Made by a program: the position numbers and the translations under genes. Positions 21,970-39,809 of a DNA stretch of 64,000 nucleotides are shown here, piece by piece (within the stretch, counting starts at the first letter, position 1; every line of letters begins with the position of its first letter). Source of the stretch: Quadrisphaera setariae (lineage in GTDB: Bacteria > Actinomycetota > Actinomycetes > Actinomycetales > Quadrisphaeraceae); NCBI RefSeq assembly GCF_008041935.1, contig NZ_VKAC01000001.1:124001-188000 (forward strand), read 5' to 3'. The notes under the pieces were generated by a model. The model saw nothing but the letters and a program-made list of their open reading frames with translations. It did no database searches and had not been told where the DNA came from.

Positions 21970-22899
21970 TCACCGGGTGAGGCGGTGCGGGGCGTACCGG
22001 GCCAGGACGAGCCCCTCCAGCAGGCCGACCAGCGTGTAGAGCACCACGGACGCGGCAGTGACGGCCACGATCAGCGCCCACACCTCGTCGTAGCGGAACC
22101 CGCCGATGGCCTTGAGGATCTGCGAGCCGATCCCGTTGCCGGTGGCCAGCCACTCCACCACCAGCGCGCCGGTCAGCGCACCGGGCACGGAGATGCGGGC
22201 GGCGGCGAAGATCGCCGGCATGGCCGTGGGGATGCCCACCCTGCGCATGACGGCGAGGTCCGAGCCGCCGTAGGCGTGCACGAGGTCGCGCGAGGTCGGC
22301 GGCACCGACCGCAGGCCCTGGACGACGTTCACCAGCGCGGGGAAGAAGACGACGATGCCGCCCATCACCGCGATGGAGCCGAGGCCGCGGCCGAAGACCA
22401 GCACGATGATCGGCGTCATCGCCACCAGCGGCACCGAGCGCAGCAGCATGGCGATGGGCATGAGCGACTGCTCGAGCGAGCGGGCGGCCACGAAGGCCGC
22501 GCCGACCACCAGCGCAGCGGCCATGCCGGCGACGAACCCGACGAGGGCGTGCTGCAGGGTCACGCCCAGCGGCGCCGCGATGGTGGCGCGGTTGGTCGCG
22601 GCGTCGGGGTCGGTGAGGAGGTAGGCCCACACGTCCTGCGGCGTCTTGCCGATGAAGGGGCTGATCTCGAAGGCGGCCAGGGCCCCCCACCACACCACGA
22701 GGGCGACGACCGCGGACACGAGCAGCGGTCGGAACGCGCGCCAGAGCGCCGTCCTGACGACGTGGCCGGCGGGGCGCACCGACTCTCCCGCGGCGCCGGC
22801 GGACGGCGTCGGCACGGGGCTGCCCGCGGGAGGCGGCGTGGTGAGGTCGTCGGTGCCGCGGGCCCGAGCGGGGTCGGACGTTCCGGTGGGTGCGCTCAC
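21970..22899 (-). CDS. ABC transporter permease (NitT/TauT/ThiX class), second subunit
   Basis: Membrane subunit of 309 residues. After a hydrophilic N terminus of about 50 residues come six hydrophobic segments and the ATPase-coupling loop AYGGSDLAVMRRVGIPTAMP. The GTG start at 22899 overlaps the stop of the other permease by GTGA. The two permeases are clearly different in sequence, so the importer probably has a heterodimeric membrane part, which is less common in this class. Confidence 0.87.
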   Translation of the reverse strand: MSAPTGTSDPARARGTDDLTTPPPAGSPVPTPSAGAAGESVRPAGHVVRTALWRAFRPLLVSAVVALVVWWGALAAFEISPFIGKTPQDVWAYLLTDPDAATNRATIAAPLGVTLQHALVGFVAGMAAALVVGAAFVAARSLEQSLMPIAMLLRSVPLVAMTPIIVLVFGRGLGSIAVMGGIVVFFPALVNVVQGLRSVPPTSRDLVHAYGGSDLAVMRRVGIPTAMPAIFAAARISVPGALTGALVVEWLATGNGIGSQILKAIGGFRYDEVWALIVAVTAASVVLYTLVGLLEGLVLARYAPHRLTR

Positions 22900-23723
22900 G
22901 AGGTGCCCTCCTGTCCGGCCGACCACGGCGTGACGACCCGGGAGACGAGGCTGAAGACGAGGTAGCCCGCTCCGGCGATGGCGCCGGTGGCGATGGCGAG
23001 GCCCCAGGTGCGGGGCACGTCGAACTGCTGCTGGGCGTTGGTGAGAGCCACGCCGAGGCCGCTGTCGACCCCGCCGAGGTACTCGCCGATGATCGCGCCG
23101 AGCATGGCCGCGGGAGCGGCGATCATCAGCGCGGCGAGCAGGCTCGGCAGCGCGGAGACGAGTCGCACCTTCAGCAGCTGCTGCAGGCGGCTGCCCCCGT
23201 AGGCGGCCACGAGGTCGATGCTCGTGCGGTCAGCGGCCCGCAGACCGAGCAGGGAGCCGATGAGCGTGGTGAAGAAGACGGCCACCGCCGCCAGGAAGAT
23301 CGACGTGGACCGGCCGCCGAAGACGATCTGGATGATCGGCCCGATGGCGGTCAGCGGGATGCAGTAGCTGATGACGCCCAGCTGCGTGACCAGTCCGTCG
23401 AGCTGGGGGACCACGAGGACGGCGCCGGCCAGCAGGAGCGCCAGGGCGTTGCCCCACAGGAAGCCCTGGGCGGCGCTGCTGATGGTGACGGTCGCGTTGG
23501 GGCCGTACAGGGCCCAGCCGTCCGCGCCCATCTTCGCGACGACGGCCCACGGGGTGGGCACGCCGCCGCCGTCAGCGAAGACCGTGACCGCCAGCAGGGA
23601 CCACAGCGCGAGGATGCCGACGACGCCGGTGGCGCCGGCCAGCCAGCGCGGGCGTTCGAAGGAGCGCCTGGCGCGCGCCTCGAGCTCCTGGTCGGTCGAG
23701 GCGAGGACCGGCCCCTCACCCAT
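22896..23723 (-). CDS. ABC transporter permease (NitT/TauT/ThiX class), first subunit
   Basis: Membrane subunit of 275 residues with six hydrophobic segments and the coupling motif AYGGSRLQQLLKVRLVSALP. The ATG at 23723 overlaps the stop of the ATPase gene by one base (TGATG), and its own stop overlaps the next permease by GTGA, so stoichiometric expression is expected. Similar permeases serve importers of HMP and other pyrimidines, riboflavin, alkanesulfonates and taurine; the substrate is not readable from the permease itself. Confidence 0.87.
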   Translation of the reverse strand: MGEGPVLASTDQELEARARRSFERPRWLAGATGVVGILALWSLLAVTVFADGGGVPTPWAVVAKMGADGWALYGPNATVTISSAAQGFLWGNALALLLAGAVLVVPQLDGLVTQLGVISYCIPLTAIGPIIQIVFGGRSTSIFLAAVAVFFTTLIGSLLGLRAADRTSIDLVAAYGGSRLQQLLKVRLVSALPSLLAALMIAAPAAMLGAIIGEYLGGVDSGLGVALTNAQQQFDVPRTWGLAIATGAIAGAGYLVFSLVSRVVTPWSAGQEGTS

Positions 23724-24559
23724 CAGTGCCCGCCCATCGCGGCGCCACCGCGGCCGAACAACAGCCCCGACAGGTGGTCGTGCAGGGCGTGGAACTCCGG
23801 CGTCCGCATCATCTCGGGCGTCCGCGGGCGGGGCAGGTCGATCGGGACCACCTCGAGCACGCGGCCCGGTCGCGGACTCATCACGGCGACGACGTCGGAG
23901 AGGAACACCGCCTCGGCGATCCCGTGGGTGACCATGAGCGTGGTGGCGGGCTTCTCGGTCCAGATGCGCAGCAGCTCGAGGTTGAGGCGCTGGCGGGTCA
24001 TGTCGTCCAGGGCGCCGAACGGCTCGTCGAGCAGCAGCACCTCCGGGCGCACCACGAGGGCCCGCGCGATGGAGACGCGCTGGCGCATGCCGCCGGACAG
24101 CTGCCCGGGCTTGGCCTTCTCGAAGCCCTTGAGGCCGACCAGCTCCACCAGCTCGTCCACGAAGGACTGGTCCGGCTTCACACCGGCCACCTCGAGCGGC
24201 AGCTTGATGTTGGAGACCACGCTGCGCCACGGCAGCAGCGCGGAGTCCTGGAAGGCGATCCCCAGCTCGTGCTGGCGGCGCACCTCCAGCGGGGTGAGGC
24301 CGTTGACCAGCGCCTGCCCCGACGTCGCCTCCTCCAGCCCGGCGAGGATCCGCAGCACCGTCGACTTGCCGCACCCGGAGGGTCCCAGCAGGGACAGGAA
24401 CGAGCCCTGCGGGGTGGACAGGTTCGCGTCCTGGAGCGCGGTGACGGTGCGCCGGCCCGAGGTGAAGGTCTTGGTGAGGCCCTTGATGTCGAGGCCGGTG
24501 CTCCCGGGGGTGCGGGCGGGGCCCTGCGCCGGGGCGGTCTGGGCGGACTGCGTGCTCAC
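23723..24559 (-). CDS. ABC transporter ATP-binding protein (NitT/TauT/ThiZ class)
   Basis: ATPase of the importer, 278 residues. Walker A is GPSGCGKST, the Q-loop [10 protein letters not shown], the signature [15 protein letters not shown], Walker [12 protein letters not shown] and the switch His in [13 protein letters not shown]. The first ~20 residues are Ala/Pro/Thr-rich and unconserved. It follows the adenine deaminase-like gene after 15 bases and runs directly into the two permease genes. Confidence 0.93.
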
Positions 24560-24574: not shown

Positions 24575-25582
24575 TCAGCTGGCGGTCTGGGGGGCCAGGG
24601 GTGCGGACGCGGCCGCGCGCACCTCGGCGCGCCAGGCGTCCTTGGCGGCGGGCTCGGCGAAGCTGGCGTCGAAGGAGGCCAGCGCCAGGGCGGTGAGCTG
24701 GCCGTCGGTGAGGCCGACGGCGTCGCGCAGCGCGCGGTAGTTGTCGTCGACGTACCCGCCGAAGTAGGCGGGGTCGTCGCTGTTGACGGTCACCACCAGG
24801 CCGGCCTCGAGCATCGCCGGCAGGGGGTGCTGCTCGAGCGCGTCGACCACCCGGAGCGCCACGTTGCTCAGCGGGCAGACGGTCAGGGGCGTGCCGGTGT
24901 CACGCAGCCGGGCGACCACCTCGGCGTCGTCGAGGGAGTGGTTGCCGTGGTCGAGCCGCTCGATCCCGAGGGTGTCGAGGGCCTCCGCGACGTCGGCGGC
25001 GGTGCCCTCCTCACCGACGTGGGCGGTGCGGTGCAGCCCCTCGGCGGCGGCCAGGGCGTAGGCGGGGCCGTAGGCGGCGGGCGGGTTGCCGACCTCGGTG
25101 GAGTCCAGGCCCACGCCGACGAAGTGCTCGCGGTGCGGCAGCCACGTCCTCAGCGCCTCGAGGGCGGCGTCGGGCCCGAGGTGGCGCAGGAAGCAGGGGA
25201 CGAGGTCCACCGACACCGGGCTCGCAGCGGCGGCGGCGCTGAGCCCCCCGAAGACGGCCTCCAGCGGCACGCCGCGCTCGGTGTGGTGCTGGGGGTCGAG
25301 GAACACCTCGGCGCGGCGGACCCCGGCCCGCTCGGCGCGGACGAGGTAGGCGGCCATGAGGTCGTGGAAGTCCTGCTCGGTGCGCAGGAGCTCCGCCGCT
25401 TCGTAGTACTGGTCGAGGAACGACTGCAGGTCGGTGAAGCGACGGGCCGCCCGCAGCGCCGCGGGGTCGGTGGTGGGCAGCACCACGCCGTGGCGCCGGG
25501 CCAGGTCGACGACGAGCTCCGGCTCGAGCGTGCCCTCGACGTGCACGTGGAGCTCGGCCTTGGGCAGCAGGGCTGCGTCCAT
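24575..25582 (-). CDS. Adenine deaminase-like protein (ADA superfamily)
   Basis: Zn-dependent purine deaminase of 335 residues. ELHVHVEGTLEP gives the first metal pair, TAHVGEEG the catalytic His/Glu, and RLDHGNHSLDD and VNSDDPAYFGGYVDDNY the remaining residues. TVCPLSNVALRVVD and the PAYFGGY motif are typical of the Aah1/Ade adenine deaminase subgroup and differ from adenosine deaminase. The likely reaction is adenine to hypoxanthine plus ammonia, though related proteins act on other 6-aminopurines. The ATG at 25582 follows a strong AGGAGG site. It lies between the lipoprotein gene and the ATPase gene, which links the importer to purines. Confidence 0.85.
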   Translation of the reverse strand: MDAALLPKAELHVHVEGTLEPELVVDLARRHGVVLPTTDPAALRAARRFTDLQSFLDQYYEAAELLRTEQDFHDLMAAYLVRAERAGVRRAEVFLDPQHHTERGVPLEAVFGGLSAAAAASPVSVDLVPCFLRHLGPDAALEALRTWLPHREHFVGVGLDSTEVGNPPAAYGPAYALAAAEGLHRTAHVGEEGTAADVAEALDTLGIERLDHGNHSLDDAEVVARLRDTGTPLTVCPLSNVALRVVDALEQHPLPAMLEAGLVVTVNSDDPAYFGGYVDDNYRALRDAVGLTDGQLTALALASFDASFAEPAAKDAWRAEVRAAASAPLAPQTAS

Positions 25583-25609
25583 GCGGGTCCCTCCTGGGAC
25601 GGGCCCCGC

Positions 25610-25647
25610 CCTCGGCGGCCGGTGCACGGGCGCACCGGCCGCCGAGG
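25610..25647 (-). terminator. Intercistronic hairpin after the binding-protein gene
   Basis: Arms 25610-25625 and 25632-25647 are perfectly complementary over 16 bases with a 6-base loop. It lies between the lipoprotein stop (25661) and the deaminase start (25582). It lacks a T-run and probably stabilises or partly terminates the mRNA, so that the binding protein is made in excess over the membrane subunits. Confidence 0.6.
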
Positions 25648-25660
25648 AGGGGGCTGGCTG

Positions 25661-26818
25661 TCAGGCGGGAGCGGCCGAGGCGGCGGCCTCGGGCGTCAGG
25701 GTCGGTCCGGTGACGAGGGACGGGTCCTCGGAGTAGACCTCCTCCAGGAGCGAGAGGTCGAACAATTTCTCCGCGGTGATCGTGGTGCCGGCCGTGGCGA
25801 GCGACTCGATGTTGGTGGCGATGAGCTCGTCGGTCATGGTGAACAGGCCGTTCTTCACGGTGTCGTCCGTGACGATCAGCGTGGCCTGGGCGTTGATCTC
25901 CTCGATCTGCTCCTCGAGGTTGAGCTTCAGCTCCTTGCCGTACTGCTCCACCGCCAGCTTCGCGCCCTCCTCGGGGTTGTCGAGGGCGTCGGTCCAACCG
26001 AGGACCTCGGCCTTGAGGAAGGCCTTGAGCTTGTCGCGGTCCTCCTCGATCGACTGCTGCGCCACGGTGAAGGTCTCCGTGACCAGCGGCAGGCCGTGGT
26101 CGGCGAAGGCGAACTGGACGGTCTTGAAGCCCTTGCCCTTCAGCAGGATCGGCTCGTTGGTGAGGTAGGCCATGAAGCCGTCGACCTCGCCGGTGGTCAC
26201 CACGGTGGGGTCGTACTGGACCGGCACGATGGTCAGCGAGCTCGCGTCGATGCCGTTGGCCTTGAGCAGGCCCGCGAAGATCTGCTCGTTGCCGCCGGAC
26301 TGCACGCCGATCTTCTTGCCCTTCATCGCCGCCGCGTCGGGGATGGGGTTGGAGTCGAGCGAGACGATGCAGAACGCGTTCTTCTGGAACGTCGCCCCGA
26401 TGATCTTCAGGGGGGCGCCCTCGTTGATGGCCGGGGCGGTGATGGTGGGGGCGGACAGGCCCACGAGCGCCTTGCCGGAGGTGACGGCGGCCTCCGCGCT
26501 GGTGCCCGCGGCACCACCGGCGATGAGGTTGACGCTCGAGAAGCCGGCGTCCTGGTAGTAGCCCTTCGAGTCGGCGAAGTACTCACCGGCGAACTCGATG
26601 TTCTTGATCCACGAGAGCTGGATCGCCAGGTCGCCGTGGTCGGCGGAGCCGCCGCTGCTCGACCCGCCGCCGGAGGCCCCGGTGGAGGAGCCGCCGCAGG
26701 CGGCCAGCGCACCGGCGCCGGCCGCGCCCAGCCCCGCGAGCCCCGCCATCCGCAGGAACGAGCGGCGCCCCAGGGCGCTGCGGACCAGGTGCTGGTGGTG
26801 GGGGTCGATCGACGGCAC
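25661..26818 (-). CDS. THI5/NMT1-like substrate-binding lipoprotein
   Basis: Extracytoplasmic binding protein of 385 residues. Signal: RRSFLRMAG (twin-arginine type) then a hydrophobic stretch and the lipobox LAAC with Cys41, so a Tat-exported lipoprotein is expected. A Ser/Gly linker (about 42-60) leads to the NMT1/THI5-like domain with QLSWIKNIEFAGEYFADSKGYY, AEAAVTSGKALVGLSAP and GKKIGVQSGG. Relatives bind HMP-type pyrimidines, riboflavin or other N-heterocycles. The operon (two purine deaminases and a nucleoside hydrolase) points to a purine-like ligand. It is the first gene of the run. Confidence 0.87.
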   Translation of the reverse strand: MPSIDPHHQHLVRSALGRRSFLRMAGLAGLGAAGAGALAACGGSSTGASGGGSSSGGSADHGDLAIQLSWIKNIEFAGEYFADSKGYYQDAGFSSVNLIAGGAAGTSAEAAVTSGKALVGLSAPTITAPAINEGAPLKIIGATFQKNAFCIVSLDSNPIPDAAAMKGKKIGVQSGGNEQIFAGLLKANGIDASSLTIVPVQYDPTVVTTGEVDGFMAYLTNEPILLKGKGFKTVQFAFADHGLPLVTETFTVAQQSIEEDRDKLKAFLKAEVLGWTDALDNPEEGAKLAVEQYGKELKLNLEEQIEEINAQATLIVTDDTVKNGLFTMTDELIATNIESLATAGTTITAEKLFDLSLLEEVYSEDPSLVTGPTLTPEAAASAAPA

Positions 26819-27039: not shown

Positions 27040-28347
27040 TCAGGCGCGGGTGGCTGCCGCGGGGCGGCACAGCAGCACGTGCTGGCGGCCCGCCACCCGG
27101 GTGAGCACCAGGGTCGCCTGGCGCGGGCCCTCGAGGCGCAGGGAGCGGCGCAGCTGCTCCACGTCGACCGCGCTGCCCCGCTTGAGCACCTCCACGGCGC
27201 CGACGCCGCGGTCGCGCAGGCGGGTGCGCAGCGCCTTCAGCCCGAACGGCCAGACCTCCTCCACCGCGAAGGCGCGGGCCAGCGGGGTCGCCACGAGCCG
27301 CTCGGAGGTCACGTAGGCGATGGTCGGGTCCAGCAGCGACCCGCCCACCAGCGCCGCCACCTGCCCGACGAGCCCGGAGCGCACCACGGCGCCGTCCGGG
27401 TCGTACAGGTAGGTGCCGACACCCTCCGGCGAGGCCACCGCGGGCGGGACGGGCAGGTCGTCGTCGTCGACGAGGGTCGCGGTGCCGCCGCGCTCGGCGG
27501 AGCGCAGCACCAGCGCGCTCGCCGCCCGCCCCGGCCGGGCGAGCGGCCCGAACCAGCACGCCGCCTCCACCACGTCGCCGTCGACCGAGACCCACTGCAC
27601 CTCGGCTGGCAGCCCGGAGCCTGCGGCGATGTCGCGGGGGACGCCGGGGGCGAGCTTGACGCCCGTGGCGGGCACGCGCCGGGCGACGTCGAGCACGGCG
27701 CTCCACGGCGGCGACGCGTGGTGGGGGTCGAGCACCCGCCTGCCGGAGGCGGTGCGGCGGGCCGGGTCGAGCCACGCCCCGTCGACGCGGTCGACGCGGC
27801 CGGGACCGCCAGCACCACCCAGCTCCGGCAGCTGGGAGATGACGTCGAGCACGTCCGCCCGCTGCACCTGCGCGTCCGGCCAGTGCCGCAGGTTCACGGT
27901 GGCGACGGCGGCGGTGGCCTCGTCCCTGTCGACGGCGAGCACGCCCAGCCCCAGGGACGCCAGGGCCATCGCGTCACCGCCGATGCCGCAGCCGAGGTCG
28001 GCCACGCGGGAGCACCCGGCGTCGCGGAAGCGCTGCGCGTGGTGGGCGGCCACCTGGAGGCGCGTCGCCTGCTCCAGGCCCTCAGCGGTGAAGAGCATGC
28101 CGTCGGCGAAGGGCCCGAACTTCGCGGCGCCCTTCGCCCTCAGCCGCGACTGCGTCATCGCGGCGGCCACCAGCTGCGCCTCGGCGCCCTCGGCGCGCAG
28201 CCGCTCGCCCAGGGCCATCGCGGTGTCGGGGCCGGCGTAGGGCGGCAGCGCCTCCAGCAGCGCCCACCCCTCGGGGCGCAGGAGCGGGGCCACGCTCGCC
28301 GCCGCTGGGGAGGAGGACGACGACTCGTCAGCGGGTCCCAGCGGCAC
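27040..28347 (-). CDS. Class I SAM-dependent methyltransferase with THUMP-like domain
   Basis: Protein of 435 residues. The N-terminal helical part (GWALLEALPPYAG, MTQSRLRAKGAAKFGPFADGMLFT) is family-specific. The Rossmann methyltransferase core has motif I VADLGCGIGGDAMAL and motif IV WLDPARR. The C-terminal ~90 residues (EVWPFGLKALRTRLRDRGVG, VEVLKRGSAVD, LTRVAGRQHVLLCRP) match the THUMP-like domain that follows such methyltransferases. An RNA substrate is likely but unknown. The GTG start at 28347 has a -10-like GAGGAT 6 bases upstream. It stands alone between the two catabolic operons and is probably unrelated to them. Confidence 0.82.
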   Translation of the reverse strand: MPLGPADESSSSSPAAASVAPLLRPEGWALLEALPPYAGPDTAMALGERLRAEGAEAQLVAAAMTQSRLRAKGAAKFGPFADGMLFTAEGLEQATRLQVAAHHAQRFRDAGCSRVADLGCGIGGDAMALASLGLGVLAVDRDEATAAVATVNLRHWPDAQVQRADVLDVISQLPELGGAGGPGRVDRVDGAWLDPARRTASGRRVLDPHHASPPWSAVLDVARRVPATGVKLAPGVPRDIAAGSGLPAEVQWVSVDGDVVEAACWFGPLARPGRAASALVLRSAERGGTATLVDDDDLPVPPAVASPEGVGTYLYDPDGAVVRSGLVGQVAALVGGSLLDPTIAYVTSERLVATPLARAFAVEEVWPFGLKALRTRLRDRGVGAVEVLKRGSAVDVEQLRRSLRLEGPRQATLVLTRVAGRQHVLLCRPAAATRA

Positions 28348-28412
28348 GTCCCGATCCTCGCAGCCGCGGCGGTGGCGGGACGCCACCGGTCCGGGTGCGC
28401 CCTCCGCCGTCC

Positions 28413-28428
28413 GTAACACGCCCGCAAC
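28413..28428 (+). promoter_or_regulatory. GlnR-like box upstream of the monooxygenase operon
   Basis: GTAAC-ACGCCC-GCAAC differs from the GTnAC-n6-GAAAC consensus at one position. It lies 169 bases before the LLM gene in a 249-base divergent gap. The rest of the gap is GC-rich, with a GGTCGG/CCGACC pairing near 28540-28563, and matches no riboswitch that I know. Confidence 0.35.
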
Positions 28429-28596
28429 CCACGGCCGCCCCGGTGCGGGCACCATCGGCGGCGCGCAGCTCCCCTGCGCCGCCCCGGCCGCACCCGCGGC
28501 CGACGGGCGCTGTTCCGCCACCGGGTGCGAGGGCCGGTGGTCGGACGACGTGCAGCCCCCGACCGGGGCGGGCCGCGCGGACGGGAGCGAGCAGCG

Positions 28597-29934
28597 GTGG
28601 CACGGCCCTTCCACCTCGGGTGGTTCACGCACTTCGGCCCCGACGAGTGGGACGCCCCCTTCGCGTCCGCCGGCGGGAGCCCGTGGGACGGCGCGTTCCA
28701 CACCGACCTCGCCCGGGCCCTGGAGCGGGCCTGCTTCGACCTCGTGCTGCTGGAGGACTCCCTCGCTGTCTCCGCGGAGGCCGGTGGCACCCGAGAGCTG
28801 CTGCTGCGCACCGGCGTGCGGGCCCCGCGGCACGACCCCGCCCCCCTGTCGGCCCTCCTGGCGGCCGCGACGCAGCACCTGGGCGTGGTGACGACCCTGT
28901 CGACGCTGCTCTACCCGCCGTTCCTGCTGGCGCGGCTGGTCTCGACGCTCGACTCCCTCTCCGGCGGGCGCACCGGGTGGAACATCGTCACGAGCACCGA
29001 CGACGCCGAGGCGCGCAACGCCGGCCTGCCCGCCCTCCCCGACCGCGACGAGCGGTACGCCGCAGCCCAGGAGCACGTGGACGTGGTCACGGCGCTCCTG
29101 GACAGCTGGGACCCCGACGCCGTCGTCATGGACCGCGCCACCCACACCTACGCCGACCACACCCGCGTCCGGGCCGTCGACGCGCCCGGCCCGCGCCACC
29201 CGGTGGCGGGACCGCTCACCACGGTCCGGTCCCCGCAGGGGCGTCCCGTCTACTGCCAGGCCGGCGGCTCGCCCACCGGGCGGGCCTTCGCCGCCCGCAA
29301 CGCCGACCTGGTGCTCGCGGTGGCCAACGGGCCGGCGGCCATGAAGGCCGCGCGCGACGACGTGCGCCGCCTCGCCGCTGAGGCCGGTCGCGACCCCGAC
29401 GCGCTGCGAGTGCTCTTCCTCGTGGCGCCGGTGCTCGGCGAGACCGAGGGGGAGGCCCGGGCGGCCCTGGCGCGCTCGGCCGCCCACCCGACAGCGCTCG
29501 CGACGACGCTGGCCAAGTTCAGCGCCTACACCGGTGTGGACCTCACCGCGCTCGACCTCGACGCGCCCCTGCCCCCTCCTGCGCAGCTGCTCGCGGGCTC
29601 GGCCCGCGGCTCGCTGGGCACCCTGGCCAAGTTCGCCCAGGTCGACGACGAGGGCCGGCCCAGCACCAAGCCGCTGCGCGAGCTCGCGGCTGACGCTGGC
29701 ACCAACTCCTCCCTCGACCTCGTGGGCACCCCCGAGCAGGTGGCCGACCAGCTGGAGGCGGCGGCCGAGGAGGTCGGCGGGGACGGCTTCCTCGTGACCA
29801 CGCCGTTCCACCGGCTCTCGCGGCACTACGTCGTCCAGGTCACCGAGGGCCTGGTCCCGGTGCTGCAGCGGCGCGGGCTGGTGCGAAGCCGCTACACCGC
29901 CGCCACCCTGCGCGGCCACCTCACCGAGTTCTGA
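28597..29934 (+). CDS. LLM-class flavin-dependent monooxygenase (NtaA/SnaA/DszA type)
   Basis: Bacterial-luciferase-like FMNH2-dependent monooxygenase, 445 residues, the usual length of the NtaA/SnaA/DszA subgroup. Motifs: ERACFDLVLLEDSLAVS near residue 45, TTLSTLLYPPFLLARLVSTLD, and SGGRTGWNIVTSTDDAEARN, which is the subgroup hallmark. The C terminus contains DLVGTPEQVADQLE and GGDGFLVT. Members oxidise C-N or C-S bonds and N-heterocycles (for example nitrilotriacetate, dibenzothiophene sulfone, riboflavin). It starts the six-gene operon; no flavin reductase gene is in the window. Confidence 0.88.
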   Translation: MARPFHLGWFTHFGPDEWDAPFASAGGSPWDGAFHTDLARALERACFDLVLLEDSLAVSAEAGGTRELLLRTGVRAPRHDPAPLSALLAAATQHLGVVTTLSTLLYPPFLLARLVSTLDSLSGGRTGWNIVTSTDDAEARNAGLPALPDRDERYAAAQEHVDVVTALLDSWDPDAVVMDRATHTYADHTRVRAVDAPGPRHPVAGPLTTVRSPQGRPVYCQAGGSPTGRAFAARNADLVLAVANGPAAMKAARDDVRRLAAEAGRDPDALRVLFLVAPVLGETEGEARAALARSAAHPTALATTLAKFSAYTGVDLTALDLDAPLPPPAQLLAGSARGSLGTLAKFAQVDDEGRPSTKPLRELAADAGTNSSLDLVGTPEQVADQLEAAAEEVGGDGFLVTTPFHRLSRHYVVQVTEGLVPVLQRRGLVRSRYTAATLRGHLTEF

Positions 29935-29971
29935 CCAGCCCGACCAGCCCGACCAGCACCCGAGGAGACCG

Positions 29972-30472
29972 ATGACCCCGACCGCCGTGCAGGCGGTGAT
30001 CGCCGGGCTGGAGCGCGCCGGCGTCACCATCGCCAGCTACCTGCCCGACTCGCTGCTCAAGCCGCTGTACCCGGCGCTGGACGCCCACCCGGGCATCCGC
30101 ACGATCCCCTGCACCAACGAGGGGGAGGGCGTGGCCGTGTGCGGCGGGGTCTTCCTGTCGGGGAAGCGCGCCGTGCTGTGCATGGAGAACTCCGGGCTGC
30201 GCGCGGCCGCCGAGCCGCTGGCGCGCATGGGCCTGGGCTCCGGCATCCCCGTGGTCATGGTCATGAGCTACCGCGGGGAGCTGGGCGAGAACAACTGGTG
30301 GGCGGTCCCGCACGGGATCACGATGGAGCCGATGCTCGCGGCGCTGCGCATCCCCTACCGCGTGGTGCGCGAGGAGGCCGGCATCGAGCAGGCCGTCGTG
30401 GACGCCTACGAGTGGTCGTACTCGGCCTACCAGCACTCGGCGGTCGTGCTCGGCGGGAGCACGGTCCGATGA
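29972..30472 (+). CDS. ThDP-dependent decarboxylase, alpha (PYR-domain) subunit, ComD-like
   Basis: Protein of 166 residues equal to the N-terminal PYR domain of thiamine-diphosphate enzymes. TIASYLPDSLLKPLY and CTNEGEGVAVCGG, whose Glu would activate the thiamine ring, match the sulfopyruvate/phosphonopyruvate decarboxylase alpha subunit. MSYRGELGENNWWAVPHG is the family motif. The stop overlaps the beta-subunit ATG by four bases (ATGA). Neither sulfopyruvate nor phosphonopyruvate is implied by the neighbours, so the substrate is open. Confidence 0.83.
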   Translation: MTPTAVQAVIAGLERAGVTIASYLPDSLLKPLYPALDAHPGIRTIPCTNEGEGVAVCGGVFLSGKRAVLCMENSGLRAAAEPLARMGLGSGIPVVMVMSYRGELGENNWWAVPHGITMEPMLAALRIPYRVVREEAGIEQAVVDAYEWSYSAYQHSAVVLGGSTVR

Positions 30473-31149
30473 CCGGCCCGGTGAGCGGCCCGGTCGTGCG
30501 GGAGCCGGCGTCGGCGATGACGCGCTTCTCCGCCATGGAGGCCCTCGCGGCGCAGCTGTCCGACGAGCTGGTGGTGCTCTCCCTCGGCGGCGCCGTCGAC
30601 GAGTGGTACACCGCCGCCCCGCACCTGCGCGAGGCCAGCCTGTTCCAGCAGCAGCTCGGCTGCGTGACGCCCCAGGCGCTCGGCCTGGCGGCCGGTCTGC
30701 CGCACCGGCGGGTGGTCTCCCTCGACACCGACGGCGGTCTCCTGTTCAACCTGGGCGTGCTGGCCACCCTCGGCAACGAGCGGCCGGGCAACCTGCTGGT
30801 GGTCGTGTGGGACAACGAGCGCTACCAGTCCATCGGCGGGCCGCGGACCCACACCTCCTCCGGCACCGTCGACCTCGCGGCCATCGCCCGCGGCGCGGGC
30901 GTGGTGCACGCGAGCACGGTCCGCGACGTCGGGTCGTTCGCCGCGGCGTGCGCGGCCGGCCTCGCCGACACCGCCGCCCCGCACGTCGTCGTCGCCAAGG
31001 TCGACACCTCCCCGGAGGGCCACGCGGCGGCGGGGCACCCCGTGGTGCGCCGCAAGCACAGCGACGGCCGGGAGGACACCTACCGGTTCGTGCGGCACGT
31101 CGAGGCGACCGAGGGTGTGACGATCATGGGCCCGAGCGAGCACAACTGA
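30469..31149 (+). CDS. ThDP-dependent decarboxylase, beta (PP-domain) subunit, ComE-like
   Basis: Protein of 226 residues equal to the ThDP-diphosphate-binding PP domain. The metal/diphosphate motif reads LDTDGGLLFNLG, followed about 25 residues later by WDNERYQSIGG, as in ComE. QQQLGCVTPQALGLAAGLP precedes it. In the GDG-x(n)-N motif the first Gly is Thr (TDG), a substitution worth noting. It is translated from the ATG overlapping the alpha stop, and its own TGA overlaps the GMC gene ATG by one base. Confidence 0.83.
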   Translation: MTGPVSGPVVREPASAMTRFSAMEALAAQLSDELVVLSLGGAVDEWYTAAPHLREASLFQQQLGCVTPQALGLAAGLPHRRVVSLDTDGGLLFNLGVLATLGNERPGNLLVVVWDNERYQSIGGPRTHTSSGTVDLAAIARGAGVVHASTVRDVGSFAAACAAGLADTAAPHVVVAKVDTSPEGHAAAGHPVVRRKHSDGREDTYRFVRHVEATEGVTIMGPSEHN

Positions 31150-32720
31150 TGCCCGGTGCCCCTGCGGTCCTCGCGCCGGCCTACGACCACGTGGTCGTCG
31201 GAGGCGGGGGAGCGGGCTGCGTGGTGGCCCGCCGCCTGGCCGAGCGCGGCGCGACCGTCCTGCTCCTCGAGGCGGGCCCAGACGACGCCGGCCGCGAGGA
31301 CGTCGCCGACGCCGGCGCGTGGCCGGCGATGCTCGGGGGCGAGCTCGACTGGGGGCTCGCCTACGCGCCGTCGCCGCAGGTGGCGGGACGGCGCATCCCC
31401 CTGCCGCGCGGGCGCGTGCTCGGCGGGTCGAGCAGCACCAACGCGATGCTCTGGTACCGCGGCCACCCCGGCGACTACGACGGCTGGGGCGTGCCGGGGT
31501 GGACCTGGGCGGACCTCGCGCCGTGCCTGGCGCGCGCCGAGGGCGTGCTGCGGGTGGAGCGCCCGCACGACCCGCACCCCGTGGCCACCGCGCTGGTGGA
31601 GGCGGTGGAGGCAGCGGGCCGACAGGGCGCGGGCGGGCTCGCCGAGCTGGCCGAGCTGACGGCCGCCTCGGAGGACGACGGCGCGGGCGGGCGGGCCTCG
31701 CGGCGGTGGAGCACCTCACGCGCCTACCTGCGCGAGCTGCCGCCGCTCGCGCCGGTGCCGGTCAGCGGGTCGCTCACGGTCCTCACGGGCAGCCCGGTGC
31801 TGCGGGTCGACGTGCAGCGCGGCCGGGCCGTCGCTGTCGTCCACCTCGTCGGCGGGCGGGCGGCGCGGACGGCGGTGGCCGGCGACGGCGAGGTGGTGCT
31901 GTGCGGCGGAGCGGTCGAGACCCCGCGCCTGCTCCTGGCGTCCGGGGTCGGCGACCCCGCGGACCTCGAACGGCTCGGCGTGCCCGTGGCCAGCGCCGTG
32001 CCCGGCGTCGGCCGGAACCTCCAGGACCACCCGCTGCTGGAGGGCGTGACGCTGCGGCTGCGCGAGCCCCGCGGGCCCGTGCGCGACAACGGCGGCGGCG
32101 CGGTGTGGAACTGGCGCAGCAGCTCCCCGCGCGGCGACGCCCCCGACCTGCACTGCTTCGTCACCCAGGCGGCGTGCGCCACACCCGCCGTGGCCGCCGC
32201 CCACCACCTCGACCGGTCCGACCCCCACCTCGTGGGGCTGGGGGTCGGGCTGATGGGCTCCCGCAGCCGCGGGCACCTCGTGGTCCGCGACCTGGCCCCG
32301 GGCGGCGCCGTCGACCTGCACCCGGGCCTCCTCGCGGACCCGGCGGACCGCGCGGCCCTGCGGCAGGGCCTGCGCGACGTGCTGGAGCTGGCCGACGGGC
32401 CGGTCTTCGCGGCGCTGGGCGCACAGCGCCTGGCACCGCTGCCCCCTGCCGGCCCCACCACCAGCGACACCGACCTGGAGGAGTTCATGAGCCTGGCCTG
32501 CACCACCTTCTTCCACGCCTGCGGCACCGCTGCGATGGGCCGTGAGGACGACGAGCGCGCCGTGCTCGACCCCGAGCTCCGCGTCCGCGGTGTGGACGGC
32601 CTGCGGGTGGCCGACGCGTCCGCGTTCCCCACCGTGCCGACGTGCAACACCCTCGCACCCGTCGTCGCGCTGGCGGAGCGCCTGGCCGACCTGCTCGCAC
32701 CCTGGGCGGTGCGACCGTGA
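31149..32720 (+). CDS. GMC-family FAD-dependent oxidoreductase
   Basis: Flavoprotein of 523 residues that oxidises an alcohol to an aldehyde (choline dehydrogenase-type fold). The FAD dinucleotide motif is HVVVGGGGAGCVVARRLAE, then LLLEAGP, GRVLGGSSSTNAMLWYRG (GMC signature 1), GAVETPRLLLASGVG (signature 2), and the catalytic FFHACGTAAMG His with PTCNTLAPVV Asn. It lies between the ThDP decarboxylase and the amidohydrolase genes with 1- and 4-base overlaps. Together with the aldehyde dehydrogenase at the operon end it could take an alcohol to a carboxylic acid. Confidence 0.88.
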   Translation: MPGAPAVLAPAYDHVVVGGGGAGCVVARRLAERGATVLLLEAGPDDAGREDVADAGAWPAMLGGELDWGLAYAPSPQVAGRRIPLPRGRVLGGSSSTNAMLWYRGHPGDYDGWGVPGWTWADLAPCLARAEGVLRVERPHDPHPVATALVEAVEAAGRQGAGGLAELAELTAASEDDGAGGRASRRWSTSRAYLRELPPLAPVPVSGSLTVLTGSPVLRVDVQRGRAVAVVHLVGGRAARTAVAGDGEVVLCGGAVETPRLLLASGVGDPADLERLGVPVASAVPGVGRNLQDHPLLEGVTLRLREPRGPVRDNGGGAVWNWRSSSPRGDAPDLHCFVTQAACATPAVAAAHHLDRSDPHLVGLGVGLMGSRSRGHLVVRDLAPGGAVDLHPGLLADPADRAALRQGLRDVLELADGPVFAALGAQRLAPLPPAGPTTSDTDLEEFMSLACTTFFHACGTAAMGREDDERAVLDPELRVRGVDGLRVADASAFPTVPTCNTLAPVVALAERLADLLAPWAVRP

Positions 32721-34099
32721 GCGCGCAGGTGCGCGTGCTCGCCGCGGGCGTCGTCGTCGTGGGGGACGCCGCGCACACCGTGCTCGCCGACGGCGCCGTG
32801 GCGCTGGTCGGCGACCGCATCACCGCCGTCGGCCCGCGCGAGGAGGTGCTGGCCGCCGTCCTCGCGGAGCACCCCGGAGCTGCCGTGGAGGACCTGCCCG
32901 ACCACGTGCTCCTGCCTGGTCTGGTCAACGCCCACCACCACTCGGGCCTGCTGCGCGGCACCGCCGAGGAGCTGCCCGTGTGGGAGTGGCTGAGGGTCCA
33001 CATCGACCCCATGCACCGCGTGCTCACCGCCCACGAGGCCGAGGTGGCCGCCCGCCTCTGCTACGCCGAGGGCCTGCTGGCGGGCACCACCACCGTCGTC
33101 GACATGTGGCGGTTCCTGCACGGCGGCGCGCGCGCCGCGGAGCTGCTCGGCAACCGGCTGGTGGCGGTCCCGTACGCCGCGGAGCACCCGCGGCACGACT
33201 TCTTCGACACCCTCGACGACGTCGAGCGGCTCGCCGCCGACCACCACGGCGGCGCCGGCGGTCGCATCGAGGTGTGGGTGGGGCTGGAGCACCCCTTCTA
33301 CGCCGTCGAGGCCGCGCAGCGGCGCGCCGTGGCCATGGCGGAGGACCTCGGCACGGGCCTCTACACGCACTGCAGCGAGTCCCGCGACGAGGTCGCGGAG
33401 TTCGAGCGCCGCTACGGCGCCCGCCCCGTGCGCGCGCTGGAGCGTCTGGGGATGCTCGACGCCCCGCGCACCGTGCTGGCCCACGCGGTCTGGCTCGACG
33501 ACGACGAGATCGCCCTGCTGGCCGACCGCGGCGTCGGCGTGGTGCACAACCCGGTCAGCAACATGAAGCTGGCCAGCGGCACCGCGCGCGTGCGCGAGCT
33601 GCTCGCGGCCGGCGTCGCCGTCGGGCTCGGCACGGACGGCGAGAAGGAGAACAACAACCTCGACCTCTTCGAGGAGATGAAGACGGCGTCGCTCCTCGCC
33701 AAGCTGCGCGACCTCGACGCCGCCGCCCTGCCCAGCTGGGACGCCTTCGCGCTCGGCACCACCGGCGGCGCCCGAGCGCTGGGGCGCGAGGCGGACCTGG
33801 GCTCCCTGGAGGTCGGCAAGAAGGCGGACGTCGTGGCCGTGCGCTCCCGCACCCCGCGCATGACGCCGCTGGTCACCTCCGGACCGCTGCTCAACGTCCA
33901 CCACAACCTCGTCCACGCCGTGCGCGGCTCCGACGTCGACCACGTCTGGGTGGACGGCGCCCCGGTCGTCCGCGACGGGGCGCTCGTGCACGCCGACCTC
34001 GGCGAGCTGGTCGACGAGGCCCGCACCACCGCGCCGGGCCTCTTCGCGCGCCGCGACGCCTGGGTCGCCGAGCACGGCCTCCCGGAGGTGGCGTGGTGA
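32717..34099 (+). CDS. Amidohydrolase/deaminase, MtaD/SsnA-like
   Basis: Metal-dependent amidohydrolase of 460 residues. Metal ligands: HxH in LVNAHHHSGLLRG, His in YTHCSESRDE, His in LAHAVWLDDDE and Asp in GLGTDGEKENNNLD. VVHNPVSNMKLASG and the NNNLDLFEEMK motif resemble methylthioadenosine/SAH and 5'-deoxyadenosine deaminases and related aminohydrolases (SsnA, TrzN). The likely reaction is hydrolytic deamination of an amino-heterocycle, giving ammonia. GTG 32717 overlaps the GMC stop (GTGA). Confidence 0.85.
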   Translation: MSAQVRVLAAGVVVVGDAAHTVLADGAVALVGDRITAVGPREEVLAAVLAEHPGAAVEDLPDHVLLPGLVNAHHHSGLLRGTAEELPVWEWLRVHIDPMHRVLTAHEAEVAARLCYAEGLLAGTTTVVDMWRFLHGGARAAELLGNRLVAVPYAAEHPRHDFFDTLDDVERLAADHHGGAGGRIEVWVGLEHPFYAVEAAQRRAVAMAEDLGTGLYTHCSESRDEVAEFERRYGARPVRALERLGMLDAPRTVLAHAVWLDDDEIALLADRGVGVVHNPVSNMKLASGTARVRELLAAGVAVGLGTDGEKENNNLDLFEEMKTASLLAKLRDLDAAALPSWDAFALGTTGGARALGREADLGSLEVGKKADVVAVRSRTPRMTPLVTSGPLLNVHHNLVHAVRGSDVDHVWVDGAPVVRDGALVHADLGELVDEARTTAPGLFARRDAWVAEHGLPEVAW

Positions 34100-35685
34100 G
34101 CGCAGCACCCACCGCCCTGGTCGACGGCGGCCGCGCGCCGGCGGGCGCGGTGTCCGCCCCCGTGCGGGCCGTGCTCGACGCGTGGCGCTCCGAGCCCGCG
34201 GGGCTGTTCACCGCGGGGGAGTGGCACCCCGCCGCGACCGGGGAGCGCCGGACCACCCGCGACCCGGCCACCGGCGCGGTGCTCGCCGAGGTGGCCGAGG
34301 CCTCCGCCGCGGACGTGGGCCCCGCCGTCGAGGCGGCCCGCGCCGTCCTCGACGACCGGGGCGCCGGCTCCTGGTGGGCGGCCGCGCCCTCGGCGCGCGG
34401 GCGGCTGCTGTGGCGCGTGGCCGACCTCCTGGCCGAGCACGCCGAGGAGCTCGCGCAGCTGGAGGTGCTCGACCAGGGCAAGACCCTCGCCACGGCCCGC
34501 GGGGAGGTCGCCGGCGCCGCCGAGCAGTTCCGCTACTTCGCGGGAGCCGCCACCAAGGTCACCGGGACGACGTTCCGGCCCTCGGCGCCGCTGCCCCCGT
34601 ACGCGACGCCGGGGACGCGCCTCGTCGCGAGCACCGTGCAGGAGCCGGTGGGCGTGGTCGCCGCGATCACGCCGTGGAACTCGCCCCTGCTCATGGCGGC
34701 CATGAAGGTCGCCCCGGCGCTCGCCGCGGGGTGCGTCGTCCTCCTCAAGCCCGCGGAGGACACCCCCCTCACGTCCGTGCGGCTCGTCCAGCTGGTGGCC
34801 CGGGCCCTCGGCGAGGCCGGGCTGCCGCGCGGGGCCGTGTCGCTGCTGACCGGCGGCGGCGCGGTCGGGGCGGCGCTCGCGGAGCACGCGGGCGTCGACA
34901 AGGTGGCCTTCACCGGCTCCACCGCCACGGGGCGCGCCCTCGTGAGGTCCGCCGGACGTCCCGGCGGCCACCTGCCCCGGCTGACCCTGGAGCTGGGTGG
35001 CAAGTCGCCCACCGTCGTCATGGCCGACGCCGACACGGCCTCCGCGGTGCCCGGCGTCGCCCGCGGGGTCTTCGCCAACTCCGGCCAGGTGTGCGTCGCC
35101 GGGTCGCGCGTCTACGTCGAGCGGGGCGCGCACGACGCCTTCGTCGAGGCGCTCGCCGAGCACGCCGCCGCGCAGGCGCTCGGGCACGGGCTGCACCCCT
35201 CCTCCCAGCTCGGCCCGCTCGCGAGCCCGGCGCACGCGGCGCGGGTGGCGCAGCGCCTGGCCGACGGCGTGGCGGCCGGAGCGCAGGTGGTGGGTGCCGG
35301 AGGTCCGGTGGAGGACGCCTCCGGCGGCGGCTGCTTCTTCGCGCCCGCTGTCGTCGTCGGCGCCGACCCCTCCTCACCGCTGGTGCGGGAGGAGGTCTTC
35401 GGCCCCGTGGTGGTCGTAGCGCCGTTCGACGACCTCGAGGAGGTCGTCGCCATGGCCGACGACACCGACTACGGCCTGGCCGCCAGCGTGTGGACGCGCG
35501 ACCTGCGCACCGCGCAGCGGGTGGTCGACGGCGTGCGCGCGGGGACGGTGTGGGTGAACTGCCACGCGGTCTTCTCCCCGGAGCTCGTCACGGGCGGCCG
35601 GCGGGCGTCCGGGTGGGGCGTGGAGAACGGGATGGAGGGACTGGCGGGCTACCTCGAGGGCAAGACCGTCTGCTCGCTGGTCTGA
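34096..35685 (+). CDS. NAD(P)-dependent aldehyde dehydrogenase
   Basis: Aldehyde dehydrogenase of 529 residues, about 40 more than usual because of an N-terminal extension (residues 1-45). ITPWNSPLLMAAMKVAPALAAG binds the cofactor, LELGGKSP carries the general-base Glu, and NSGQVCVAGSR the catalytic Cys. EEVFGPVVVV and NCHAVFSPELVTGG follow. It ends the operon. The preceding GMC enzyme could supply its aldehyde, as could the ThDP decarboxylase. Confidence 0.88.
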   Translation: MSAAPTALVDGGRAPAGAVSAPVRAVLDAWRSEPAGLFTAGEWHPAATGERRTTRDPATGAVLAEVAEASAADVGPAVEAARAVLDDRGAGSWWAAAPSARGRLLWRVADLLAEHAEELAQLEVLDQGKTLATARGEVAGAAEQFRYFAGAATKVTGTTFRPSAPLPPYATPGTRLVASTVQEPVGVVAAITPWNSPLLMAAMKVAPALAAGCVVLLKPAEDTPLTSVRLVQLVARALGEAGLPRGAVSLLTGGGAVGAALAEHAGVDKVAFTGSTATGRALVRSAGRPGGHLPRLTLELGGKSPTVVMADADTASAVPGVARGVFANSGQVCVAGSRVYVERGAHDAFVEALAEHAAAQALGHGLHPSSQLGPLASPAHAARVAQRLADGVAAGAQVVGAGGPVEDASGGGCFFAPAVVVGADPSSPLVREEVFGPVVVVAPFDDLEEVVAMADDTDYGLAASVWTRDLRTAQRVVDGVRAGTVWVNCHAVFSPELVTGGRRASGWGVENGMEGLAGYLEGKTVCSLV

Positions 35686-35876: not shown

Positions 35877-36170
35877 GTGTCGGTCTCCATCAAGCCGCTC
35901 GAGGACCGCATCGTCGTCAAGCCCCTCGACGCCGAGCAGACCACCGCATCCGGCCTCGTCATCCCGGACACCGCCAAGGAGAAGCCCCAGGAGGGCGAGG
36001 TCCTGAGCGTGGGCCCGGGCCGCATCGACGACAACGGCAACCGCGTGCCGCTCGACGTCAAGGTCGGCGACAAGGTCATCTACTCCAAGTACGGCGGCAC
36101 CGAGGTGAAGTACGGCGGCCAGGAGCTGCTCGTGCTCTCGGCGCGCGACGTGCTCGCCGTCGTCGCCTGA
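35877..36170 (+). CDS. groES: Co-chaperonin GroES
   Basis: Hsp10 lid of the GroEL chamber, 97 residues. [27 protein letters not shown] includes the mobile loop that contacts GroEL, and [17 protein letters not shown] the roof hairpin region. The GTG start follows AGGGGAGG. The two CIRCE operators lie about 95 bases upstream. groEL follows after a 161-base gap that contains a GC-rich imperfect hairpin (about 36210-36247) and no gene. Confidence 0.96.
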
Positions 36171-36199: not shown

Positions 36200-37942
<1,743 letters not shown>

Positions 37943-38762: not shown

Positions 38763-39809
38763 GTGCGGGTGCCCACCCCCAACGCCGCCCCCTCGGGCGT
38801 GTCGCTGGGCGTCGCGGCAGCTGCGCGCCGCCTCGGCGTCGCCCCCGCGACCCTGCGGACGTGGGCCCGCCGGTACGGCCTCGGCCCCAGCGAGCACGAG
38901 TCGGGCTCGCACCGCCGCTACACCCCCGAGGACCTCGCCCGCCTCGTCGTGATGCGCCGGCTCACGCTGGAGGGCGTCCCGCCCGTCACCGCTGCCGCCA
39001 CCGCCCTGAGCACCGACCCCACCGAAGCCGCGATGGCACTGGCCTCCAGCGCGGGCGAGGGCTCCGACACCGACCTCGAGGAGCCCGACGACGCGGTCGC
39101 GACCGGCGACGTGCCGGCCGTGGTGGCCCTCGCGAGCGACCTCGGTGTCTGGAGCGCGGTCCTCCCCGCCGACCGCACCCCGCTGACGCGCAGGCCTTCG
39201 CCCGCGGGCCAGGGCGCCCTCCAGCGCGCGGTGCTCGCCGGTGACTCGCCCGGTGCGGCGGCGGCCGTGCTCGCCGCCTGCTCGGCGAGGGGGCCGCTGC
39301 GCGCCTGGGAGGAGGTGGTGCAGCCGGCGCGGGCCGCTCTCGGCCGCCGGTGGGAGGCCACTGGTCCGGGCGTCGACTCCGAGGTCCTCCTGGCGGCCGC
39401 CACGCTCGAGGCGCTGCGGGCCCTGCGCCGGCCGCCGGAGCGCACCACCGCCGTCGTCCTGCTCGCCGCGGCGGAGGGCGAGGTCGACTCCCTGCCCCTG
39501 CACGTGCTCGCCGCGGCGGTCGCAGCCCACGGCGTGCGCCCCTGGGTGCTCGCGCCCGGGCTGCCCCGGGAGGCCGTGGCGGCCGCCGTGCGCCGCACCG
39601 GCCCCGCCGCCGTGCTCGTGCACGCCGAGCAGCCGGTGGCCGACGCGACGGCCCAGCTGGGCCCCCTGCCGCGCCTGCGGCACCCGGTGCGCCTGGTGCT
39701 GTCCGGACCGGGGTGGGCGGGGGCTGCGCTGCCCCCGGCGCGGCCCGTGCTGCAGGCCCCCGCGCTGCCCGCGGCGCTCGAGGTGCTGCTCGAGGCCACC
39801 GAGCCCTAG
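38763..39809 (+). CDS. MerR-family regulator with degenerate B12-binding-type domain
   Basis: Protein of 348 residues. The N-terminal winged helix (about residues 14-75: AAARRLGVAPATLRTWARRYGL, SHRRYTPEDLARLVVMRRL) is MerR/BldC-like. The C-terminal ~200 residues follow the CarH/LitR layout of a helical domain then a Rossmann domain. Where CarH has W-x9-E-H, this protein has W-x9-E-V (RRWEATGPGVDSEV), and the axial-ligand E-x-H is E-V-D. It therefore probably does not bind cobalamin. It starts at GTG 38763 or 38769. It is divergent from whiD and precedes bldM by about 80 bases. Confidence 0.82.
   Translation: MRVPTPNAAPSGVSLGVAAAARRLGVAPATLRTWARRYGLGPSEHESGSHRRYTPEDLARLVVMRRLTLEGVPPVTAAATALSTDPTEAAMALASSAGEGSDTDLEEPDDAVATGDVPAVVALASDLGVWSAVLPADRTPLTRRPSPAGQGALQRAVLAGDSPGAAAAVLAACSARGPLRAWEEVVQPARAALGRRWEATGPGVDSEVLLAAATLEALRALRRPPERTTAVVLLAAAEGEVDSLPLHVLAAAVAAHGVRPWVLAPGLPREAVAAAVRRTGPAAVLVHAEQPVADATAQLGPLPRLRHPVRLVLSGPGWAGAALPPARPVLQAPALPAALEVLLEATEP

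Follow-up and report, generated by a model that had tools for sequence, protein, structure and literature searches.

The window analyzed here, a 64,000-nucleotide stretch of the Quadrisphaera setariae genome (contig NZ_VKAC01000001.1, positions 124,001 to 188,000), carries an operon of six genes encoding an LLM-class flavin monooxygenase, the two subunits of a split thiamine diphosphate (ThDP) enzyme resembling ComD and ComE (together ComDE), a glucose-methanol-choline (GMC) flavin alcohol oxidoreductase, an amidohydrolase (AH) and an aldehyde dehydrogenase (ALDH). From sequence comparisons we lean towards the view that this operon supplies the substrate-specific enzymes of an uncharacterized branch of purine catabolism, which would act on a substituted aminopurine, that is, an adenine-like ring with a side group that bears or gains a carboxylate. 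In that case the six genes would account for most of a pathway that strips the side group from an unusual purine, after which the ring would be usable as food. The gene set, its conservation, its purine context, the exchange of one oxygenase for another and the separate ComDE subfamily are observed in the sequences and gene neighborhoods; each single step proposed below is held with less confidence than the view as a whole, and any named compound class, taken by itself, is unlikely.

The six genes are co-directional on the + strand (28597-35685), confirming to the base the layout given in the initial annotation, including its junctions of +37, -4, -1, -4 and -4 bases, and Pfam bore out the family that it had named for each gene. 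The GMC protein (31149-32720, + strand; PF00732 1e-33, PF05199 6e-33) reached no NCBIfam cut-off, and the ALDH (34096-35685, + strand) matched Aldedh at 2e-148 and 495 bits. The window belongs to a 4.9-Mb assembly, for which the nearest ComE relative, also from Quadrisphaera, is 96% identical. Quadrisphaera granulorum (L009) and Streptomyces sp. NP160 (L010) carry the same six genes in the same order, with protein identities of 84-98%.

A ComE search of 84,980 species genomes returned 121 relatives, and the best 80 of the 121 were kept, the loci (numbered L) thus being drawn by ComE alone; 69 of the 80 are longer than 20 kb, and some of the other 11 end at contig ends. The presence of each gene was counted at identity thresholds of our own setting (for example 35% for GMC, 50% for AH and 48% for ALDH), which gave ComD and ComE in all 80 loci, GMC in 73, AH in 69 and ALDH in 63. 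Complete sets of five number 57 among the 80 loci and 54 among the 69 longer ones, which supports the earlier claim that these enzymes serve one pathway. By record titles, this five-gene core spans two phyla, in Alphaproteobacteria and Actinomycetota, and ComE identity is 65-74% in relatives other than the two nearest. Among the carriers are Methylorubrum rhodesianum DSM 5687 and Celeribacter baekdonensis DSM 27375. In four loci (L039, L045, L085 and L086) the AH lies outside the stretch, yet an AH homologue of 63-67% identity is present elsewhere in the genome. At E <= 1e-50, a sample of 394 genomes from the class to which the window belongs held ComE in 2, its own genome counted, and a sample of 385 from the G009 class held it in 2, each a carrier that had been found before. 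Since ComE is rare in both samples and the genes are kept together, the set appears patchy but cohesive. The genome-wide neighborhood search that had been suggested for this operon thus upheld a core of five genes conserved in two phyla but not the LLM, which is not universal: the six-gene set did not hold as a conserved unit, because core and LLM coincide in only 6 of the 80 loci, whereas core and a Rieske oxygenase coincide in 51.

No description of this gene set was found in the open-access literature, subscription journals being mostly outside the search; the statement that no characterized pathway has this composition agrees with that result, which does not establish absence in print. The compound and its enzymes are without a name in the literature searched, and the cluster now provides a defined gene set. 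The conservation of a dedicated multi-gene catabolic set over two phyla suggests that its substrate would be a naturally common purine derivative.

The recurring neighbors tie the cluster to purines, and on gene context we consider this link likely. By a purine-type neighbor we mean any of a xanthine dehydrogenase (XDH)-like, ADE-like, or 8-oxoguanine- or guanine-deaminase-like protein, an A_deaminase family member, a PnrA-like (BMP) importer protein, or AllC. At least one such neighbor was present in 67 of the 69 loci longer than 20 kb, the exceptions (L053 and L065) being of a minimal type with a cytidine deaminase (CDA)-fold deaminase; among the 80 loci, an XDH-like large subunit occurred in 59, a PnrA-like importer protein in 59 and an ADE-like protein in 38. 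The XDH-like enzymes belong to different subfamilies (pucD-like best in L089, XdhA-like best in L040 and L022), which differ by lineage and are a further sign of repeated recruitment, as is considered for the LLM below. In the genomes G001 (Microbacterium sp. Gd 4-13) and G335, gene order is nearly identical and the cluster is set within a purine-degradation locus. Its flanks in G335 score above the cut-offs for allantoinase (513 bits, cut-off 358), 5-hydroxyisourate (HIU) hydrolase (116, cut-off 87) and uricase (353, cut-off 168), as does an adenine phosphoribosyltransferase; G001 has an 8-oxoguanine deaminase (627, cut-off 532) and, in its locus L040, an allantoate amidohydrolase (487, cut-off 479) and an XDH-like enzyme. 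Purine genes of these two genomes that were not scored against curated cut-offs were recognized as counterparts by eye. In a Rhizobium tumorigenes record, one stretch holds guaD, a BMP importer, Rieske, glutathione S-transferase (GST) and LysR genes, ComD, ComE, GMC, the amidohydrolase, an oxygenase, a molybdopterin enzyme and ALDH, and its guanine deaminase lies above its own cut-off (420 versus 375). In the assembly of the window itself, contig C12 carries a uricase and an XDH-type protein, and beside this uricase are relatives of allantoinase, HIU hydrolase and 8-oxoguanine deaminase with identities of 47-51%. These purine-type neighbors support the proposal of a nitrogenous substrate that undergoes deamination and favor the modified purine that had been named as one of two candidates.

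A similar context is found next to the operon in the window. Divergent from the six genes, and upstream of them beyond a THUMP-like gene, an importer operon runs on the - strand from 26818 down to 19877. It encodes an NMT1-type substrate-binding lipoprotein of an ABC importer (25661-26818; PF09084, 139.6 bits), a homologue of which adjoins the cluster at 53% identity in L040, L044 and L096 and at 40% in L086; an adenine-deaminase-like member of the A_deaminase family (24575-25627), with a cluster-adjoining homologue of 44% in L040, L044 and L096; an ABC transporter ATPase (23723-24559; PF00005), with homologues of 72% in L040, L044 and L096 and 79% in L086; two ABC permeases with ambiguous starts (22896-23723, PF00528, 49 bits; 21970-22926, PF00528, 85 bits); a nucleoside hydrolase (20901-21929; PF01156, 160 bits); and a second A_deaminase family protein (19877-20863; PF00962, 273.6 bits; TIGR01430, 272.9 bits, cut-off 216.55). 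The structures nearest to the 24575-25627 protein are 3rys (317 bits) and 3ou8 (302 bits), with the next at 108 bits, and these place it with the adenine deaminases: the Protein Data Bank (PDB) names both 'adenosine deaminase', but we take 3ou8 to be PA0148 and 3rys to be AAur1117, both adenine deaminases. A P. aeruginosa adenine deaminase that acts on adenine is mentioned in PMC13316717.

The NMT1/THI5 domain of the importer is the sole basis for the other candidate, a hydroxymethylpyrimidine (HMP)-type compound related to thiamine, of which GMC and ALDH would oxidize the 5-hydroxymethyl group and AH would remove the 4-amino group before a RutA-like LLM opened the ring. The LLM class does include RutA, against whose cut-off of 498 the window LLM scores 64 bits, but this LLM fits the NtaA/DmoA model TIGR03860 far better, and 59 of the 80 loci have the PnrA-like importer protein instead, together with XDH or purine deaminases. 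Although no search was aimed at thiamine genes, the recurring neighbors of purine type make it very improbable that the cluster is devoted to such pyrimidines.

The AH (32717-34099, + strand; Amidohydro_1, 1e-55), a 460-residue MTA/TRZ-type aminohydrolase, is a probable aminopurine deaminase, judging from its relatives. Its nearest structures, both by sequence and by a predicted model (pLDDT 90), are the deaminases 4f0r, 4gbd and 4dyk, of the adenosine and 5'-methylthioadenosine (MTA) type. The earlier MtaD/SsnA-like label is nonetheless too specific, since the protein lies far below the cut-offs for SsnA (163.2 bits versus 455.5 for TIGR03314 and 163.0 versus 444 for PRK07203) and for MTA/S-adenosylhomocysteine (SAH) deaminase (182 versus 779 for PRK15493); it also falls short of 8-oxoguanine deaminase (232.5 versus 532 for PRK08203). 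In addition, a histidine occupies the position at which all five aligned chains (four proteins, one solved twice) have the glutamate of a P-x-E segment, and this residue, H100, is invariant across 19 aligned members of the family. In TM0936, the glutamate at this position binds the ribose diol. The loss of this contact would fit a substrate that has no free ribose diol and may bear a carboxylate in its place.

The relatives of AH also include the triazine hydrolases AtzA and TrzN, which would suit a special case of the purine proposal in which the substrate is a cytokinin or another N6-substituted adenine: the LLM or Rieske oxygenase would cleave the N6 side chain to give adenine, GMC and ALDH would oxidize a hydroxylated side chain, and AH would hydrolyze N6-substituted adenines. 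The ADE-like neighbors in 38 of the 80 loci and the adenine-deaminase-like protein of the window are consistent with this, as are the many genera in the record titles of ComE relatives that we take to be plant-associated. However, such a route yields no alpha-oxo or alpha-imino acid for ComDE, which is present in every locus, and no literature was found that ties such a cluster to cytokinin use; we regard it as improbable. Eritadenine-like N9-polyhydroxyalkyl adenines, which would chemically suit GMC, ComDE and ALDH together with an N-dealkylation, were also considered and were placed lower, as the literature search found no report of their bacterial breakdown.

The first gene of the operon, the LLM (28597-29934, + strand, with an ambiguous start at 28597 or at an upstream GTG at 28525; Bac_luciferase, 7e-43), belongs to the NtaA/DmoA family of FMN-dependent monooxygenases, passing the TIGR03860 cut-off of 279.7 with 377.7 bits, and its nearest solved structure in a PDB search is DszA (244 bits). 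At our thresholds an LLM was present in 11 of the 80 loci and a VanA_C Rieske oxygenase in 62, and none had both, so the two look interchangeable. The VanA_C proteins usually occur with a GST-like protein and with the Rieske part on a protein of its own. The actinobacterial L079, from a Frankiales metagenome-assembled genome (MAG), has this Rieske version in the order Rieske-GST-ComD-ComE-GMC-VanC-ALDH; no VanA_C homologue was found in the assembly of the window. The two R. tumorigenes VanA_C proteins that we tested are nearest to SxtT/SxtDIOX and then to the methylxanthine N-demethylases NdmA/NdmB. In L089 (11150-12444, 17628-18497 and 4789-5640), VanA_C proteins that lack a Rieske domain of their own and are closest to the saxitoxin oxygenases SxtT/SxtDIOX are encoded along with separate Rieske and GST-like proteins. 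The window LLM is 31-36% identical to four Micrococcales-type LLMs, which are 56-93% identical among themselves, and this low identity suggests that it may be a separate recruitment. A flavin-reductase-like gene follows GMC in L086. Both LLM and Rieske oxygenases are known to hydroxylate beside a heteroatom, after which the bond is cleaved, and this shared chemistry leads us to propose an oxidative dealkylation. The cluster would offer a natural case of apparent replacement between an LLM flavoenzyme and a Rieske oxygenase within the same operon.

ComD (29972-30472, + strand; TPP_enzyme_N, 1e-8), the PYR-domain subunit of an unnamed subfamily, and ComE (30469-31149, + strand; TPP_enzyme_C, 2e-13), the PP-domain subunit, have the general ThDP motifs, with TNEGEG (the PYR glutamate) in ComD and D88 G89 ... 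N116, DG(x26)N, in ComE. Nevertheless, they miss the sulfopyruvate decarboxylase cut-offs (87.1 bits versus 147.95 for ComD on TIGR03845; 87.9 versus 221.5 for ComE on TIGR03846) and, with the chains scored separately, the phosphonopyruvate decarboxylase cut-off of 312.5 (TIGR03297; ComD 62.0, ComE 84.5). We aligned the ComDE proteins of 82 loci and the window with annotated Leisingera ComDE, an AepY from Rhizobium and two further ComDE-like pairs. ComD carries the signature motifs MENSGLRA and GENNWWA, and ComE ends in a near-invariant tail of about 32 residues, RKHSDGREDKYIFVRHVExTEGIxIMGPSEHN; the consensus segments ENSGLR and SIGGPxTHT stand in place of QNTAIG and STGDQPT in the annotated Leisingera comDE, a single reference protein. 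Because both sets of cut-offs are missed and the proteins have near-invariant residues of their own, ComDE is, as judged from these comparisons, a ThDP subfamily in its own right, neither a sulfopyruvate nor a phosphonopyruvate decarboxylase. The ComDE-like label of the initial annotation is therefore too specific if read as sulfopyruvate decarboxylase, as the substrate-loop residues also differ. An operon that handles organosulfonates or phosphonates would account for the matches to these three models and for DszA, a desulfurization enzyme, as the structure nearest to the LLM, but in addition to the wide margins by which all three cut-offs are missed, the loop and C-terminal residues differ from those of one annotated sulfopyruvate and one phosphonopyruvate decarboxylase, and no sulfonate or phosphonate enzyme was seen among the annotated neighbors in the loci checked. 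This makes such a function most improbable. A model of ComE alone had a modest pLDDT of 70, which makes its structural neighbors weak evidence; the structures nearest to the model were PDB 9u8q and 9iz4, and its best Foldseek match was 9u8q (AzcBC; E 4.5e-8), followed by RhiEF (1.6e-7). The gap between 9u8q and RhiEF is small, so the model does not favor one substrate over another.

Taken as a purine branch, the steps might run as follows. The NMT1-type ABC system would import the compound, and the LLM, or in most relatives the Rieske oxygenase, would hydroxylate a carbon that adjoins a nitrogen of the ring or of an amino group, whereupon the C-N bond would break. GMC and ALDH would convert alcohol to aldehyde to acid, and ComDE would decarboxylate an intermediate that is an alpha-oxo or alpha-imino acid; GMC, ComDE and ALDH might together form a mandelate-type alpha-oxidation module. 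AH would hydrolyze the ring amino group of a carboxylated intermediate, and the product would be a plain purine base that enters the ordinary route through adenine deaminase, XDH, uricase and allantoinase.

Several observations weigh against this proposal. Some of the purine neighbors score below equivalog cut-offs (ADE-like, 349 bits versus 472; XDH-like, 659 versus 784 and 506 versus 780), and since importers, XDH and second deaminases vary by lineage, the purine link may in part be a loose clustering of nitrogen-scavenging genes. The absence of loci with both oxygenases is threshold-dependent: in the Rieske-type L013 a stretch 7 kb downstream is LLM-like at 32%, and two LLMs are present in L085. 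In the Rieske-type L079 the best AH match is 40%, in a MAG that may be incomplete; L022 is without GMC and ALDH, and ALDH is missing from 9 of the 63 core loci longer than 20 kb. An adenine deaminase would also be redundant next to AH if AH deaminates first. Furthermore, GMC, AH and an oxygenase are all absent from five minimal units, which are made up of ComDE, a CDA-fold deaminase and parts of an NMT1 importer (coordinates L019:9028-9504, L053:9013-9495, L057:8990-9493, L065:8922-9398 and L084:2079-2678). A LysR gene is present in four of the five, L084 being cut upstream. No close AH (best 40%, full length) or GMC (best 37% whole, 43% partial) was found in the five genomes, and a VanC above 33% in just one of them (G008, 41%). 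These units indicate that ComDE can work without GMC, AH or an oxygenase, which the alpha-oxidation idea leaves unexplained, and that deamination of an imported compound may be enough to yield its substrate. The CDA enzyme of L053 has deoxycytidine and guanosine deaminases as its closest matches. In L023 (Kaistia), a CDA enzyme and AH stand within one operon.

An alpha-imino-carboxylate role for ComDE could account for the minimal units, which a chain-shortening role does not. As a long shot, ComDE here might be the first known member of a ThDP subfamily that acts as decarboxylase on alpha-imino carboxylates of a heterocycle, either purine or pteridine, thiamine adding to a ring C=N and not to a C=O, and the cluster would then be a bacterial route for taking a carbon side group off the purine ring itself, with the LLM and Rieske oxygenases as interchangeable first steps. 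The minimal units also bear on a pterin- or folate-side catabolism, in which GMC and ALDH would oxidize a 6-hydroxymethyl- or polyol-pterin to pterin-6-carboxylate, the 2-amino group would be lost through the action of AH or the CDA-fold enzyme, ComDE would decarboxylate, XDH would hydroxylate, and the LLM or Rieske oxygenase would cleave a C-N bond, for instance C9-N10 in folate. This would explain GMC, ALDH, XDH and the replacement of AH by a guanine-deaminase-like CDA enzyme, and it covers the importer-CDA-ComDE unit if a ready carboxylate is imported; a split ThDP enzyme that acts on an alpha-imino acid exists, going by the title of the PDB 9u8q record. On the other hand, the adenine-deaminase-like proteins, the nucleoside hydrolase, the PnrA-like importer and uricase point to purines, and the known pterin deaminases (Arad3529 type), reported in PMC9513972 to have about 399 residues and to fall in a cyclic-amidine group, differ in length and class from the 460-residue AH. 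We consider a pterin substrate unlikely.

The remaining genes around the operon are given here for completeness. The THUMP-like methyltransferase gene between the two divergent operons (about 27040-28500, - strand; PF18096, 78.7 bits; start ambiguous) adjoins the cluster only in L009 and L010 among the 80 loci. Downstream, groES (35877-36170) starts 191 bases past the operon end and is followed by groEL (36332-37942). Further on, a MerR regulator with a B12-binding domain (38763-39809, + strand; PF13411, PF02607) has what we take to be the layout of CarH/LitR-type B12-dependent light sensors, and past the importer operon lies a Sodium/calcium exchanger family protein (18168-19373, - strand).

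Compared with known systems, the purine proposal connects first to aerobic purine catabolism by adenine deaminase, XDH, uricase, HIU hydrolase, allantoinase and allantoate amidohydrolase, the genes of which flank the cluster in G001 and G335; to our knowledge the standard pathway has no place for an LLM or Rieske oxygenase, GMC, ALDH or ComDE. The AH shares its fold (TM 0.86-0.92) and catalytic-site motifs with the MTA/SAH and adenosine-type deaminases 4f0r, 4gbd and 4dyk but differs from them in the histidine that replaces the conserved glutamate and in having GTDGEKENNN for GTDG(A/C)ASNN. The LLM is of the same family as the nitrilotriacetate (NTA)/EDTA monooxygenases and riboflavin lyase, which act by oxidative C-N cleavage, although these score 184, 136 and 162 bits in the PDB search as against 244 for DszA. 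The VanA_C-type proteins of the relatives resemble NdmA/NdmB, and their separate Rieske and GST-like partners follow a layout known from NdmCDE; the window's assembly, however, has no VanA_C homologue, and in a comparison that covered NdmA/NdmB the relatives' VanA_C proteins are nearer to SxtT/SxtDIOX. Finally, ComDE resembles RhiEF and AepY as a ThDP enzyme with PYR and PP parts that keeps the ThDP glutamate and the DG...N motif, and a review covers RhiEF and ComDE (PMC12141560). The ComDE of the cluster departs from known ComDE and from RhiEF/AepY in ENSGLR for QN(S/T)(G/A)(L/I)G, TDG for GDG, IGGPxTHT for TG(D/G)QPT and the extra C-terminal tail, and the best match of the ComE model, AzcBC, at 24% identity, is titled a TPP-dependent alpha-imino acid decarboxylase in its PDB record (9u8q).

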